Origin: Deltaproteobacteria bacterium
Lineage (GTDB): Bacteria; Myxococcota_A; JAADFL01
DNA: 13,083 bases
Assembly (NCBI GenBank): GCA_013152945.1
Contig: JAADFL010000199.1
Span: forward strand, 1-13,083
Direction: 5' to 3'
Shown here in pieces: positions 8,329-12,911 of the stretch; within the stretch, counting starts at the first letter, position 1; every line of letters begins with the position of its first letter. Made by a program: the position numbers and the translations under genes. A model generated the notes under the pieces. That model made no database searches, was not told the origin of the DNA, and saw only the letters and a program-made list of their open reading frames with translations.

Positions 8329-9486
8329 TTAAAAGGTCCACGACTCGAATTCACATAAAGCTTCATCACCCTCTTTCGGTTGGAATCCAAATGTATCTTC
8401 GTAATAAACCCTCCCGAAATCCTGGTTCCAGCATTCATGGGAGTATGCCACCATGTCCTTCAAATCTCCTTTTGATATCCGAACATCCCCCCTGCCTGCT
8501 CCGAAAGTGTTCCACCTGGTCACAATCTCCAATTTTTCCTTGGCACTACGCAACGGGTTGTTTTCATCCAGGTCGGCTCTTGTTTCATATGCGAATTGTC
8601 CACTGCGATCGTTTTCCAACAAGTAATTGTACTGCGCATCCACAGGTTCGGTTCCCTCATCCGCATCGCCCGGCAGGAATTGATTGAAAACAATATCAAT
8701 CTTCACGTACTCACCAATTGATTGATCGGCCTGGGGCGGCCGCGTATCATACTGCACCAAGAGCGAGCCCTTGCCTTTTTCCGTTGGATCCTCGGATGCA
8801 ACCCGGTCCACATCGAAATCAAGATTTCCACAGCCATACCGCGTTCCCTCGAACGGCACTGAAAGACCCTGCATCGCCTTTACCCAACCCTGGTCCGAAG
8901 AGAGGTTCCTTTTTTGTTTCGATCTCACTTCCAATGCATATGCATAGAACACGCGGTCATTACCAAGTTTGCAACCGTTCGGCGGTTCCTTGCACCAATC
9001 TTCCGCTTGTTCTGTACCGGGTTCGCATCGCTCCATCTCGAAACGAAAATCAGTTGCATCTTTTTCTTCCCCGGGCCATGGTCCCCAAATCCTCCTGTTG
9101 TTTGCGCGTGCACTCGGCGGATATTCGAGTACCTTGTCTACCAGGTCGAGGAAACCCAGCACACCTTGGTTTACATCGTGGGTGAAATTATCGGTGAAAC
9201 AATACCACAATGCACGCCCGCCGTTCGATGCCGAGCCGGCACAATCATTGAATTGGTCGTCTCCGGTCCGGCCCCCATCATCTGATAACACAAGGGGCTG
9301 CCTGGTCTTGTTCATTGCTATGGTACCCTGCTCGGGCAATTTGACCTGAAGTACCTGTGCATCCGGTGCTGCCGACAGGAACCTTGCGTCTTCTCGTAAT
9401 AAATCATTTGAAAACGGATCGCCGCATCCCTGAAATAACAGAATAGTCAATGGCATCACTGTAAAGAAAAAAGGTTTTATCCTCAT
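8329..9486 (-). CDS. Cysteine-rich putative outer-membrane lipoprotein
   Basis: The protein starts MRIKPFFFTVMPLTILLFQGC, a signal peptide with a lipobox (FQGC) whose cysteine would be lipidated; Gly at +2 favours outer-membrane sorting. ATG 9486 is chosen because GGAGG lies six bases upstream; a longer frame from 9519 overlaps the caspase gene and would bury the signal. The mature part of about 365 residues has eight further cysteines, consistent with disulfides in an exported protein, and many Trp, Asp and Gly residues. I see no enzyme motif and do not recognise the family, though similar predicted lipoproteins seem usual in Myxococcota-type genomes (recollection, not checked). It starts 29 bp after the caspase gene and is probably the last gene of the sigma/anti-sigma/caspase operon. 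It could be a partner or substrate of the protease, which is inference. Confidence 0.82.
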   Translation of the reverse strand: MRIKPFFFTVMPLTILLFQGCGDPFSNDLLREDARFLSAAPDAQVLQVKLPEQGTIAMNKTRQPLVLSDDGGRTGDDQFNDCAGSASNGGRALWYCFTDNFTHDVNQGVLGFLDLVDKVLEYPPSARANNRRIWGPWPGEEKDATDFRFEMERCEPGTEQAEDWCKEPPNGCKLGNDRVFYAYALEVRSKQKRNLSSDQGWVKAMQGLSVPFEGTRYGCGNLDFDVDRVASEDPTEKGKGSLLVQYDTRPPQADQSIGEYVKIDIVFNQFLPGDADEGTEPVDAQYNYLLENDRSGQFAYETRADLDENNPLRSAKEKLEIVTRWNTFGAGRGDVRISKGDLKDMVAYSHECWNQDFGRVYYEDTFGFQPKEGDEALCEFESWTF

Positions 9487-9515
9487 GACCCGCCTCCGTC
9501 GTGCCGGTTCATCTT

Positions 9516-11138
9516 TCAAAAGACGTAACCAAAGGCAAAGAGCCCCTCTCCGTACCCGAGGCTCTTATCGCCGTCTACGTTGTAGTACAAGTAGTGAACC
9601 CTTCCCTCCAATTTCAATTTCCAATGCCTGTTGAACACGGCCTGCATTCCGGCTATGAGTCCCGGGCTTACCGTGGTGAAATCCTGGGGCGTCCAGTTCC
9701 GGAATTCCATGCCCTTGAACTTCCTCCATATGTAAACCAAGGCAAGCCTGCCGCCGATATAGATCCTGAACCAATCCCACCCGAGGGTGTAGTTCACACC
9801 AACACCAAGGCCCATTTCGCCGTATTCTATGGGAACATCCGTGTCTTCCGTTACTCGTACGGATCCGTCCCGCCCGCCCAGGGAAACATCCAACGCAAGG
9901 GAAAGATTCTTTGTTATAAAGTTATGCAGATCAACATTCAAAAAGAGTATCGGAATCGTAAGGAAAAGGTCATCTCTTATCGGCGATTCAAAAAATCCCT
10001 GTAACCCCATACCTGTCCCCAACTCCACCTTGAGCCCATTGATTTTCACCATTACCGCTCCCTTGGTGTAATCATCTTCGTATGAAGTCGATTTCAGTTG
10101 CTCATCATTAATTTCCTTGATTTCATTCTTGGACACCGTGACTTTACCCAAAAGCACGTCATGACTTCTTCGCTTCTTGATTACGTAATTTCCGGGTGCA
10201 AGCGCGATGTCACGAACCTCTCCCTCCTGCTTGATTACTTCTGCAACAACTACTCCCTTTTTTAAATTATAGACCAGGTAATCCCCGGAAACAGGAGCGG
10301 CAAAACGCAATCTGCTCCTTTCGGCATTAACCCTGGTGAGCACCAGATTGCCCCTCCCCTTCAGGTCGAACTTGTATTCCGGGTGTTGGGTTCCACCCCT
10401 TGTACCGGATGTTTTCAAAACAGTATTGTTGTATGTGTAGTTATAGGCCTCGACCAGCGTGACGGCTCCGTCACCCGACCGGTCCGCAGCACCGCGTAAA
10501 CCCGAAACAAAGTAATGGGTAAAGAATGAGCCACCCAGCTCGTCGGATTCCTGCGAATCTTCGTCACCTGCCGAGGAAGTAATAAGCACCTGGCCGGATG
10601 CATTCAGGTCGTTTTCCACGTTTAAAAAGGACGGTGCTATCTGTCCGCCTTTGAGTCTTGTTATTTCTCCCGCACGGCATGAATCGAGAATGCCGATGCG
10701 TACATCAGCCTTGGACGAGGCAAAAAAAGACTTGATTTTCCGCAAGGGCAAAGGGCTTCCGTTCATCATCAACGAACCATTCTTGGAGTGGCCCGAGTAG
10801 TACACCAACAACATTGTTTCAACATTGGGTTTCCTGTTTTTGATTCTTTCGATTCTGGTTTCCAACCTTTTCAAACTATTGATGAAATCATCGGGATCTC
10901 CATTCAGCAGTACACGCATATTACTACGCCTGACCCGGCCGAGCCTCCGCAGGACCGATGCGACCTTGGTTGCATCCCTCTCGGCGTATTTCAGTTCCAC
11001 CATGTCATCGCCGCCCCTGTTGTTGCCTGCTACGAGTGCAAATCTCACAACCTTTGTATTACTGTCTTCTTGTGCCAAGACCGGTTCGGCCATGACTACA
11101 AGTATCATCAGAGCCATTGCGAGACGGGATATTGTCAC
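9516..11138 (-). CDS. Exported caspase-like protease (Peptidase C14) with C-terminal outer-membrane beta-barrel
   Basis: Residues 1-22 are a signal peptide (cleavage likely after VLA). Residues ~28-265 form a caspase fold with catalytic His117 in YYSGHS and Cys154 in ILDSCRAGE. An EF-hand-like loop DRSGDGAVTLVE (219-230) places Asp219, Ser221, Asp223 and Glu230 where calcium ligands would be. Residues ~270-355 look like a beta-rich linker (GDYLVYNLKKG, LAPGNYVIKKRR). Residues ~360-540 alternate polar and hydrophobic residues with Gly and aromatics and end in a terminal Phe, as in outer-membrane barrels. The start is GTG with AGGAGG five bases upstream, overlapping the anti-sigma stop by 4 bp. 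Caspase-fold enzymes are cysteine proteases; bacterial ones often cleave after basic residues. If the barrel sits in the outer membrane, the protease most likely faces the periplasm. Confidence 0.88.
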   Translation of the reverse strand: MTISRLAMALMILVVMAEPVLAQEDSNTKVVRFALVAGNNRGGDDMVELKYAERDATKVASVLRRLGRVRRSNMRVLLNGDPDDFINSLKRLETRIERIKNRKPNVETMLLVYYSGHSKNGSLMMNGSPLPLRKIKSFFASSKADVRIGILDSCRAGEITRLKGGQIAPSFLNVENDLNASGQVLITSSAGDEDSQESDELGGSFFTHYFVSGLRGAADRSGDGAVTLVEAYNYTYNNTVLKTSGTRGGTQHPEYKFDLKGRGNLVLTRVNAERSRLRFAAPVSGDYLVYNLKKGVVVAEVIKQEGEVRDIALAPGNYVIKKRRSHDVLLGKVTVSKNEIKEINDEQLKSTSYEDDYTKGAVMVKINGLKVELGTGMGLQGFFESPIRDDLFLTIPILFLNVDLHNFITKNLSLALDVSLGGRDGSVRVTEDTDVPIEYGEMGLGVGVNYTLGWDWFRIYIGGRLALVYIWRKFKGMEFRNWTPQDFTTVSPGLIAGMQAVFNRHWKLKLEGRVHYLYYNVDGDKSLGYGEGLFAFGYVF

Positions 11139-11935
11139 GGCAACCTCCTGGGCAGGTCCACGTAGACCTGCTCACAATGCCCCATGGAGACATGTTCGAT
11201 TCTGCGCACACTTCCTTTTTCAGCGAATTCCAGGGCCAATACGTGTTCCAGCCGGTTTCGAGGCAGGGGATCCGGGCAAAGTAATGCAAATACCCTTTCA
11301 AAAGATGCATCATCCAAAATGATGCTGTTGGGAAGCGGGCTCATGCGGCCTGGACTCACAGGTTTATTTTTCGTGGTTCCGGGATACAGGGCGGTAACCT
11401 TTCCCCTGGAATCCAGGGATGCCATGTACAAAAAGCCCGGAGCATCAGCCTTGAACATGAATTGAATGCGTGATCCCGGGTCCAGCAAATCACCGCTTTT
11501 TCTCTCCACGGGTCCGCTACTCGTCAGTAATGCATAATGCAACTCCAATCCTTTTGCACCTTTGCTCCTGGTTGCATACGGGCTTTCAATATCTTGACGG
11601 CCGATTTTTGGGAAAAACAGTGCAAGGGCAATAGCGGCGGCAGCAAGGGATATTGCGGGCACGAGTAATTTTATTCGCAATATTTTCATCGCGAAATAAC
11701 GGACGCCGCTTTTTGATTCGTTTTTCAGCCTCATCCTTGTCCTGGTCATAACAGGGGAATTTACGAACTCCTGCTTTTGCATCTCCAGGATCTTGAGTAT
11801 TTCCGTGCACTCCTTGCATTTTGATACATGAACCATGATTTCATCAGCCTCACAACCTTCGAGGTCGCCCGTCCATGCCCTGGTTATGGCCCACCTGGAA
11901 GGATGTCCTTCCTCTTTTCTGATCTCGAGCATCAC
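11135..11935 (-). CDS. Zinc-finger anti-sigma factor with periplasmic DUF4384-like domain
   Basis: The cytoplasmic N-terminus carries the HxxxCxxC zinc anti-sigma motif (His36, Cys40, Cys43 in HVSKCKEC), which binds an ECF sigma factor. A single membrane helix spans about 88-108. The periplasmic part (about 110-266) includes a DUF4384-like segment: DPGSRIQFMFKADAPGFLYM, then DSRGKVTALYPG, then LDDASFERVFALLCPDPL. DUF4384 is widely found C-terminal to caspase domains; its ligand is unknown. The gene can start at GTG 11935, overlapping the sigma stop, or ATG 11932; a G-rich AGGGGGAG site serves either. It overlaps the sigma gene upstream and the caspase gene downstream, so the three are probably co-translated. 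The likely role is to hold the sigma factor at the membrane until a periplasmic signal arrives. Confidence 0.88.
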   Translation of the reverse strand: MMLEIRKEEGHPSRWAITRAWTGDLEGCEADEIMVHVSKCKECTEILKILEMQKQEFVNSPVMTRTRMRLKNESKSGVRYFAMKILRIKLLVPAISLAAAAIALALFFPKIGRQDIESPYATRSKGAKGLELHYALLTSSGPVERKSGDLLDPGSRIQFMFKADAPGFLYMASLDSRGKVTALYPGTTKNKPVSPGRMSPLPNSIILDDASFERVFALLCPDPLPRNRLEHVLALEFAEKGSVRRIEHVSMGHCEQVYVDLPRRLP

Positions 11936-12480
11936 TCAAGCTCCCCCTGCACACCGTTTGGTGAATAAGACTCCACGTGGCTGCGCGCTGTTTCAATAAA
12001 GTCGTTCAACCTTTTTCGCAATGTGGGCAAGGACACACCTGCCATCAAAGCAACTTCGGCCTGGCTCATACCGTCGACAAAATAGTAGACAGCTATCTCC
12101 TGGGTCTTTCTCGGGAACAACGAGAGCACTTTTCGAACAGTTGCCGCATTCTCCATGCAGGAGCCAAAAGGCAGGCCGAGAAGGTGCGAGTCCAAGGTCT
12201 TGGCTTCGCCATCTTCCAGTTTTTCGAGGCTTACATGCCGATCGTAGCTCTTACGCTTCCTGCTTCGCAATACATTGAGGCAATGATTGGTTGCTATCCT
12301 TGTCAACCATGTCATGGGAGAAGAATCCCTCCTGAATCCTTTCCTGCTCTTCAATGCCCGGAGAAATACCTCTTGCAAAGCCTCCTCTGCGTCAACCCGG
12401 TCTCCAAGCAGGCCGAGACATCTCGCATATATGATATGCGCATACTTATCATACAAGTCTCCGACTTCCTGCAGCTCCAT
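11932..12480 (-). CDS. ECF-family RNA polymerase sigma factor
   Basis: This 182-residue protein has only sigma regions 2 and 4, as in extracytoplasmic-function sigma factors. Region 2 (about 7-75) includes LLGDRVDAEEALQEVFLRAL and MTWLTRIATNHCLNVLR, the parts that bind core polymerase and the -10 element. Region 4 (about 115-165) ends in the helix-turn-helix MSQAEVALMAGVSLPTLRKR that reads the -35 element. I chose ATG 12480 with AAGAG eight bases upstream; a TTG three bases earlier is possible. The next gene overlaps its stop and encodes a matching zinc-finger anti-sigma factor, so activity should be controlled by sequestration at the membrane. The operon probably includes the caspase and lipoprotein genes. 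Many ECF factors drive their own operon, but no clear ECF-type promoter (GGAAC with a downstream GTC) was found upstream. Confidence 0.94.
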   Translation of the reverse strand: MELQEVGDLYDKYAHIIYARCLGLLGDRVDAEEALQEVFLRALKSRKGFRRDSSPMTWLTRIATNHCLNVLRSRKRKSYDRHVSLEKLEDGEAKTLDSHLLGLPFGSCMENAATVRKVLSLFPRKTQEIAVYYFVDGMSQAEVALMAGVSLPTLRKRLNDFIETARSHVESYSPNGVQGELE

Positions 12481-12690
12481 CAATCAGGCTCTTGGCCCAT
12501 AATCTTCCGGCATCTTTGCTCTTCAGTCAACCGGCTCGTTCCAATACGCACCTTTCAAACGTTTTCAAGATATCTCGCCTTCCACTAACCATAGACACCG
12601 AAATGTATAAAAAAGAAAAAGAGAAAAGAGAGAAAGAAAACCGATACCCGGATTTTTCAAGCAATAGGCAGAATAAAATATTACGGGGTT
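12481..12690 (-). promoter_or_regulatory. Upstream region of the ECF operon with polypurine tract and weak promoter candidate
   Basis: This stretch of about 210 bp holds no gene. On the minus strand TTGAAA (12568-12563) and TATTGG (12546-12541) are 16 bp apart, a weak sigma70 match, and TTTGAAA recurs 10 bp after it. A pure purine run of 32 bases covers 12609-12640 on the plus strand, so any minus-strand transcript from the small basic gene would carry a long U/C tract. No hairpin terminator is evident after that gene. Confidence 0.3.
12609..12640. repeat. 32-base polypurine/polypyrimidine tract
   Basis: Every base from 12609 to 12640 is A or G on the plus strand, in an irregular A-rich pattern. 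It lies between the small basic gene and the ECF sigma gene. Such tracts can bend DNA or mark a low-complexity spacer; no function is shown. Confidence 0.6.
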
Positions 12691-12870
12691 TTAGCTTTTG
12701 TTTTCAGCAAACTTTGCTTCGAACTCTTCACGTGTCTCTCCAAAGAGTTCGGCATAGCTCTTCGTGCTCTTCTTTGCTTCCTTCTTTTTACGGGCGGCCC
12801 CTGCCTTTCTTTTCTTGAGAGTATCCCTGCGGGCCTTGACTTTCCTGTGTTTTCCAGTTTCGCTTGGCAT
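12691..12870 (-). CDS. Small very basic protein, function unknown
   Basis: This 59-residue protein begins MPSETGKHRKVKARRDTLKK and has 17 Lys or Arg within residues 1-37. A short, partly acidic and aromatic tail follows (SYAELFGETREEFEAKF, 38-54). The charge pattern suggests binding to RNA, DNA or the ribosome, but I recognise no named family and it matches no standard ribosomal protein I know. ATG 12870 is preferred, with GGAG eight bases upstream; a TTG two codons earlier is too close to that site. Upstream, on the minus strand, a perfect -35 (TTGACA) has a modest -10 17 bp later. It is a single gene, separated by about 210 bp from the ECF operon in the same direction. Coding is supported by the ribosome binding site and amphipathic composition but remains uncertain because lysine-rich frames can arise by chance. 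Confidence 0.6.
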   Translation of the reverse strand: MPSETGKHRKVKARRDTLKKRKAGAARKKKEAKKSTKSYAELFGETREEFEAKFAENKS

Positions 12871-12911
12871 CTTCAAATCTCCATCGTTTAGCCGGCAACA
12901 AAAGATATTAC

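Follow-up and report, generated by a model that had tools for sequence, protein, structure and literature searches.

The ECF sigma factor modules of Myxococcota described here encode a membrane anti-sigma factor and an exported caspase-family protease that share a short motif, R-x-K-G, located in the periplasmic linker of the former and in the loop following the catalytic cysteine of the latter. The presence of the same motif in both proteins suggests that the caspase cuts the anti-sigma factor to switch genes on. As far as can be judged from the sequences, it is probable that the caspase processes itself at R-x-K-G and cuts the anti-sigma factor at its own copy of the motif (site 1), the sigma factor thus being released, and that a beta-barrel on the caspase together with a lipoprotein ties the switch to the outer membrane.

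Organization of the Module

The window, i.e., the whole stretch of 13,083 nucleotides analyzed, corresponds to an entire contig (G000:C199) of a genome of 4.84 Mb that is 94% complete. The sigma/anti-sigma and the anti-sigma/caspase junctions both overlapped by 4 bp, and the ATG of the lipoprotein gene was located 29 bp past the caspase stop codon (Table 1). The open reading frames, all of them on the minus strand, therefore agreed with the four-gene unit (overlaps of about 4 bp, then 29 bp) claimed in an earlier note on this DNA. A lysine-rich ORF of 61 amino acids (12691-12876, minus strand) was found upstream of the sigma factor gene and gave no family match.

Table 1. Features of the module in the window (positions are those of the window).
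Feature	Position	Strand	Basis or remark
ECF sigma factor gene	11932..12483	-	Sigma70_r2 and TIGR02937
Anti-sigma gene: cytoplasmic zinc-type domain, one TM helix, periplasmic DUF4384-like Ig-type beta-sandwich	11135..11935	-	
Anti-sigma juxtamembrane linker, R-S-K-G codons, predicted site-1 cleavage motif	11558..11569	-	Lys invariant, 44 relatives
Exported caspase (C14) gene, predicted C-terminal outer-membrane beta-barrel	9516..11138	-	
Caspase R161-L-K163-G164 codons, predicted self-processing motif with counterpart in the anti-sigma linker	10647..10658	-	Loop after catalytic Cys
Caspase catalytic Cys154 codon	10677..10679	-	Caspase alignment
Caspase catalytic His117 codon	10788-10790	-	Caspase alignment
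Lipoprotein gene, lipobox LFQGC, likely start ATG at 9486	8329..9519	-	Partner of barrel-type caspases

Conservation of Gene Order in Myxococcota

Loci were retrieved with the pattern ExSQESD, which contains neither the anti-sigma nor the caspase motif, so that retrieval was independent of the motif, and the genes of the relatives' loci were identified by profile searches of all ORFs. A scan of genome contigs with the anti-sigma factor alone gave no relative, whereas the search with the caspase alignment did. Relatives of the caspase were present in 84 of 188 Myxococcota genomes, and sigma factor, anti-sigma factor and caspase occurred together almost wherever the contig permitted (40 loci). 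The same order, mostly with -4 bp junctions, recurred in 80 named loci of GTDB genomes. Hosts of the module included Corallococcus, Myxococcus, Pyxidicoccus, Citreicoccus, Anaeromyxobacter, many Myxococcota MAGs and several Spirochaetota MAGs; nearly all the named organisms with close relatives were Myxococcota or Deltaproteobacteria, which makes the genome of the window almost certainly a Myxococcota one as well.

The association held in both directions across the 188 Myxococcota genomes: an anti-sigma gene lay upstream of 92 of the 112 caspases and, starting from the anti-sigma profile, a caspase gene was directly downstream in 92 of the top 116 matches listed. As for the remaining 24, 13 proved to have a caspase that differed in type or gene order or had initially escaped detection, three were at contig ends, seven were orphans and one was not an anti-sigma factor. 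The ordered gene set, whose search in relatives had been suggested in the earlier note, is thus co-conserved, and its recurrence across Myxococcota with mostly -4 bp junctions, far beyond chance, upholds the view that the genes form a single unit.

Some loci departed from the general pattern. In L034, L223, L226, and L229 the caspase gene came first, followed by those of the sigma and anti-sigma factors; these reverse-order caspases were monophyletic (support 1.0), and in most cases neither protein had the motif Arg. MAGs titled Bifidobacterium breve and Klebsiella pneumoniae (L108, L112, L120) carried the myxobacterial module, and these record titles are probably wrong. The genome of the window itself harbored six caspase/anti-sigma/sigma modules (contigs C199, C121, with two, C170, C141, and C9; loci L034-L036, L233, and L281 among them), which span at least three caspase types and are a paralogous family of parallel switches.

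Sigma Factor and Upstream DNA

The sigma factor displayed sigma2 and sigma4 regions only, as ECF sigma factors do. It matched Sigma70_r2 (58.6 bits, E 5e-16) and TIGR02937 (72.7 bits vs. a cut-off of 42.9), and its region 4 scored 20.2 bits, under the cut-off of 25.7. PADLOC models for anti-phage defence gave a single weak match in the window (mad1, E 0.016), to the helix-turn-helix region of the sigma factor, and did not identify the module as a defence system. A sigma-70 promoter scan of the window performed no better than on shuffled sequences. In the operons of Myxococcaceae (L076-L105, L122), the conserved DNA blocks TTTCTGTTTT and GTGTCCAT were found upstream of the first gene; these may be the operon promoter, with no safe -35/-10 assignment within them.

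Anti-Sigma Factor and its Juxtamembrane Linker

The anti-sigma factor of the window presented the features of zinc-type membrane anti-sigma factors, namely an N-terminal domain with H-x3-C-x2-C (HVSKCKEC, preceded 25 residues earlier by a His) and one transmembrane helix (about residues 88-107), and it is proposed to hold the ECF sigma factor at the inner membrane. Its DUF4384 match (24.7 bits) was slightly below the Pfam cut-off of 27, and 18 of 44 relatives matched this family. The periplasmic domain was similar to many Ig-type sandwiches (Z up to 9.5), so that the fold says little about function. As for zinc binding, zf-HC2 was found in 14 of the 44 relatives, and each of the zinc cysteines in about 50% of them (weighted); many anti-sigma factors of L108-L132, from uncultured proteobacterial and Deltaproteobacteria MAGs, lacked HxxxCxxC yet kept the juxtamembrane R-x-K-G. 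Thus, while all four genes listed in the earlier note were confirmed, its zinc cysteine motif is no family trait, and the lipoprotein accompanies barrel-type caspases only.

Apart from Met1, Lys124 was the sole invariant residue in the alignment of 44 anti-sigma factors; within R122-x-K124-G125 the Arg was conserved in 92% and the Gly in 93% of the sequences (weighted). The AF2 model (pLDDT 87.7) placed the motif in a coil that follows the transmembrane helix (end near residue 106) and precedes the first beta-strand (residue 129), with pLDDT below 50 for residues 108-118; according to the model, the juxtamembrane linker is flexible. It is in flexible juxtamembrane linkers that site-1 proteases cut other anti-sigma factors. 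R-x-K-G was absent from DUF4384 proteins outside sigma/caspase modules.

Caspase and its Loop Motif

The protease matched Peptidase_C14 (39.4 bits vs. a cut-off of 21.4) and, in its C-terminal part, OMP_b-brl (29.1 vs. 28.7 bits), and it carried a signal peptide ending in VLA, before Q. The signal peptide and the C-terminal barrel together suggest that the caspase is probably anchored in the outer membrane by its barrel, the protease domain facing the periplasm, into which the anti-sigma linker also extends. His117 and Cys154, the dyad of metacaspases and orthocaspases (p20 fold), were invariant in 17 relatives, as were Asp152 and Asp199, candidates for an acidic S1 pocket, in the caspase alignment, and the nearest relatives of solved structure by sequence were metacaspases. 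The affiliation with EACC1-associated caspases was not sustained (NF047832, 56.7 bits vs. a cut-off of 140), nor was that with the type III-E Craspase, the protease being a Peptidase_C14 with a barrel and no CHAT or Cas family appearing among the window proteins scanned.

The motif R161-x-K163-G164 was situated in the p20/p10 linker region, 7-10 residues past Cys154, in the stretch that connects the catalytic strand to the following strand. By relative entropy, Lys163 ranked second of 520 columns, after Cys154 and above the catalytic His117, and the loop motif was absent from other caspases of the same genomes, outside the modules. Caspase homologues of bacteria and plants cleave after Arg or Lys. 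A preference for Arg/Lys at P1 is common to all characterized C14 members other than caspases (PMC5756287). A third caspase type, with SCHSGQGKS or DTCHNGRDKS loops, was present in L036, L228, and L232, in otherwise similar modules.

Lipoprotein

Among unique caspases of the window's type, the lipoprotein gene was the next one after 60 of 65 full-length (barrel) caspases and after none of the 39 shorter ones with sufficient flanking sequence (Fisher p 2e-23), a figure that is somewhat biased because the profile for full-length caspases was built largely from lipoprotein-linked loci. The window lipoprotein gave no Pfam match, and no known domain was detected in 38 relatives either. Its AF2 model was all-beta and confident (pLDDT 84, pTM 0.81), and Cys354 and Cys380 were invariant among relatives. 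OspA and porins were rejected as fold candidates (best VIA-align Z 9.1, near noise; best Foldseek E 0.077), and in view of this lack of a clear match no fold is claimed. In Myxococcaceae (L076-L105, L122) a second lipoprotein paralogue was found directly upstream of the sigma factor gene, at about 1.1 kb from it, the operon order being lipoprotein-sigma-anti-sigma-caspase-lipoprotein. A solitary paralogue (L288:3235-4419, G000:C87) had no caspase near and adjoined an unrelated gene of 624 amino acids.

Pairing of the Motif in Caspase and Anti-Sigma Factor

In 94 non-redundant type-I pairs, all caspases contained x-K-G, with the Arg in front in 86, and the corresponding anti-sigma factors displayed R-x-K-[G/A/S] in 82 cases, x-K-G without that Arg in around 10 and R-G in two. 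The 21 type-II caspases presented [RK]-[GS] instead, matched by [RK]-[GS] in the anti-sigma linker, this evidence being weaker since so short a match ([KR][GAS]) is by itself common by chance. Divergent type-II caspases (DACxS...RG) were paired with linkers such as F-T-A-R-G, F-S-P-R-G, and Y-I-G-V-R-S. Two loci showed the same replacement in both proteins, K for R in L264 and R-S for R-G in L279. The basic residue in caspase and anti-sigma factor, respectively, was K/K in 93 pairs, K/R in 2, R/K in 3, and R/R in 17; a strict K/R coevolution was discarded owing to these five mismatches and to a split lying mostly between two families. The upstream Arg was lost jointly in one reverse-order clade and in L118 (Fisher 0.008, uncorrected for kinship), and this restricted distribution makes the joint loss supporting evidence only.

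The motif was also followed in genes without their partner. Among orphan anti-sigma factors, L218, L219, and L220 lacked R-x-K-G, L215 had M-R-G, and L216 and L221 retained R-x-K-G; the last two are sigma/anti-sigma pairs without a nearby caspase, followed by a Ser/Thr kinase or another lipoprotein. The caspases of L137 and L138 kept the loop motif intact, with a lipoprotein-like gene next and neither sigma nor anti-sigma factor nearby. This fits self-processing but also a structural role, which the loop Lys could have.

Proposed Mechanism and Alternatives

The metacaspase relatives, their preference for Arg/Lys at P1 and the location of protease domain and linker on the same side of the membrane point to the following cascade. 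The anti-sigma factor would keep the ECF sigma factor at the inner membrane, while the caspase, paired with the lipoprotein, would sit in the outer membrane through its barrel with the protease domain in the periplasm. An envelope signal would activate the caspase, probably by self-cleavage between Lys and Gly of R-x-K-G in the loop past the catalytic Cys, and the active caspase would then cleave the same bond of the anti-sigma motif, which lies in the flexible linker immediately beyond the inner membrane. An M50 site-2 protease, followed by cytoplasmic proteases, would finish the anti-sigma factor, and the freed sigma factor would transcribe its genes. A site-2 protease of this type (M50, PF02163, 194 bits) is encoded in the window's own genome. 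The strict synteny, the periplasmic topology predicted and the shared R-x-K-G support the idea, advanced in the earlier note, of an envelope signalling module in which the protease relays the signal and releases the sigma factor; the other role considered there, the caspase as a death effector, found no support in the evidence gathered here.

The caspase might instead be the output of the system, with another protease or a conformational change activating the sigma factor, which would induce the operon, and with the caspase acting on envelope or foreign proteins in remodelling, killing or death. Its place within the operon, which is probably autoregulated, would fit such a role, as would the barrel and the lipoprotein, suggestive of an outer-membrane task, the caspase-lipoprotein pairs of L137 and L138, and the cell death suggested in PMC3501461; nevertheless, it leaves unexplained why the only residue kept without exception in the anti-sigma factor is a linker Lys that faces the caspase, and why the caspase carries the same motif, and we consider it unlikely. 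A very unlikely reading is that R-x-K-G of the anti-sigma factor is a docking or pseudo-substrate peptide occupying the S1 pocket of the caspase, or the reverse, so that release rather than cleavage would be the signal: a single pocket would be contested by the two copies of the motif, one beside the active site and the other in the linker, and K-G is invariant while its cleavage is a prediction, but the catalytic dyad is invariant as well, and site-1 cleavage of anti-sigma factors usually takes place in just such a flexible segment close to the membrane. Least probable, in our opinion, is a coincidental likeness, K-G being structural in the caspase loop and cut or bound by another envelope factor in the linker. 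The shortness of [KR]G and its retention without a nearby partner (L137, L138, L216, L221) would agree with coincidence, which is however at odds with the absence of the motif from other DUF4384 proteins, other caspases and three of the orphan anti-sigma factors, and with two caspase types each matching their own anti-sigma type.

Comparison with Known Systems

The function of prokaryotic caspases has long been an open question, and the answers given have mostly drawn on the analogy with cell death. We give an even chance to the broader proposal that, throughout these widespread modules, the exported caspase serves a membrane anti-sigma factor as its dedicated site-1 protease, one motif serving both self-activation and substrate recognition, with a barrel-lipoprotein sensor and a periplasmic cascade that ends in transcription, not death. 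If this were true, bacterial caspases would have a concrete job and would count among the envelope proteases by which ECF sigma factors are activated, and caspase cascades would gain a role other than cell death. For a large caspase family a partner, a cleavage site and an output can now be predicted, and each prediction can be tested in cultured myxobacteria that are amenable to genetics (Myxococcus, Corallococcus, Pyxidicoccus, and Anaeromyxobacter).

Regulated intramembrane proteolysis of anti-sigma factors is known for RseA (by DegS/RseP), RsiW and RsiV (by signal peptidase). These membrane-bound proteins, cut at site 1 and then at site 2, have a periplasmic juxtamembrane segment, a layout like that of the present anti-sigma factor, whose cleavage is predicted. 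To our knowledge, the site-1 proteases described so far are serine proteases or belong to other classes, and no caspase-family member was found in the literature searched.

Sigma-70/metacaspase operons were reported in 2012 in Myxococcus xanthus, Anaeromyxobacter, Haliangium, and Sorangium, and it was suggested that they are connected with cell death during development (PMC3501461). They show the same gene pairing in the same phylum and very likely belong to the present module family, but the passages found describe only sigma factor and metacaspase, the term anti-sigma is absent from that paper, and neither motif nor mechanism is given. The statement of the earlier note that this was no system known as described was hence only partly right, as these operons were already on record, although with no anti-sigma factor or mechanism. 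In the type III-E CRISPR Craspase, the caspase-like Csx29 (TPR-CHAT) cuts Csx30, an inhibitor of the ECF-like CASP-sigma (PMC10028731). The likeness is that a caspase-like protease cleaves the inhibitor of an ECF sigma factor, in the present module by prediction; Craspase, however, acts in the cytoplasm within an RNA-guided CRISPR effector, whereas the present module has an exported protease and a transmembrane anti-sigma factor. A caspase-type protease gene near an ECF sigma factor gene also occurs in EACC2-caspase systems, with DUF1822 (PMC8195603), and in ECF54, which has CHAT neighbors and is proposed to lack an anti-sigma factor (PMC8999054); their partners are different, and they have no membrane anti-sigma factor with a matching motif, unlike the module described here. 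No description of a membrane anti-sigma factor as the target of an exported caspase, or of the shared motif, was found in the literature searched, which covered few subscription papers. Proteolytic activation of ECF sigma factors is thus already known, and what is new is the motif common to the anti-sigma linker and the caspase loop.
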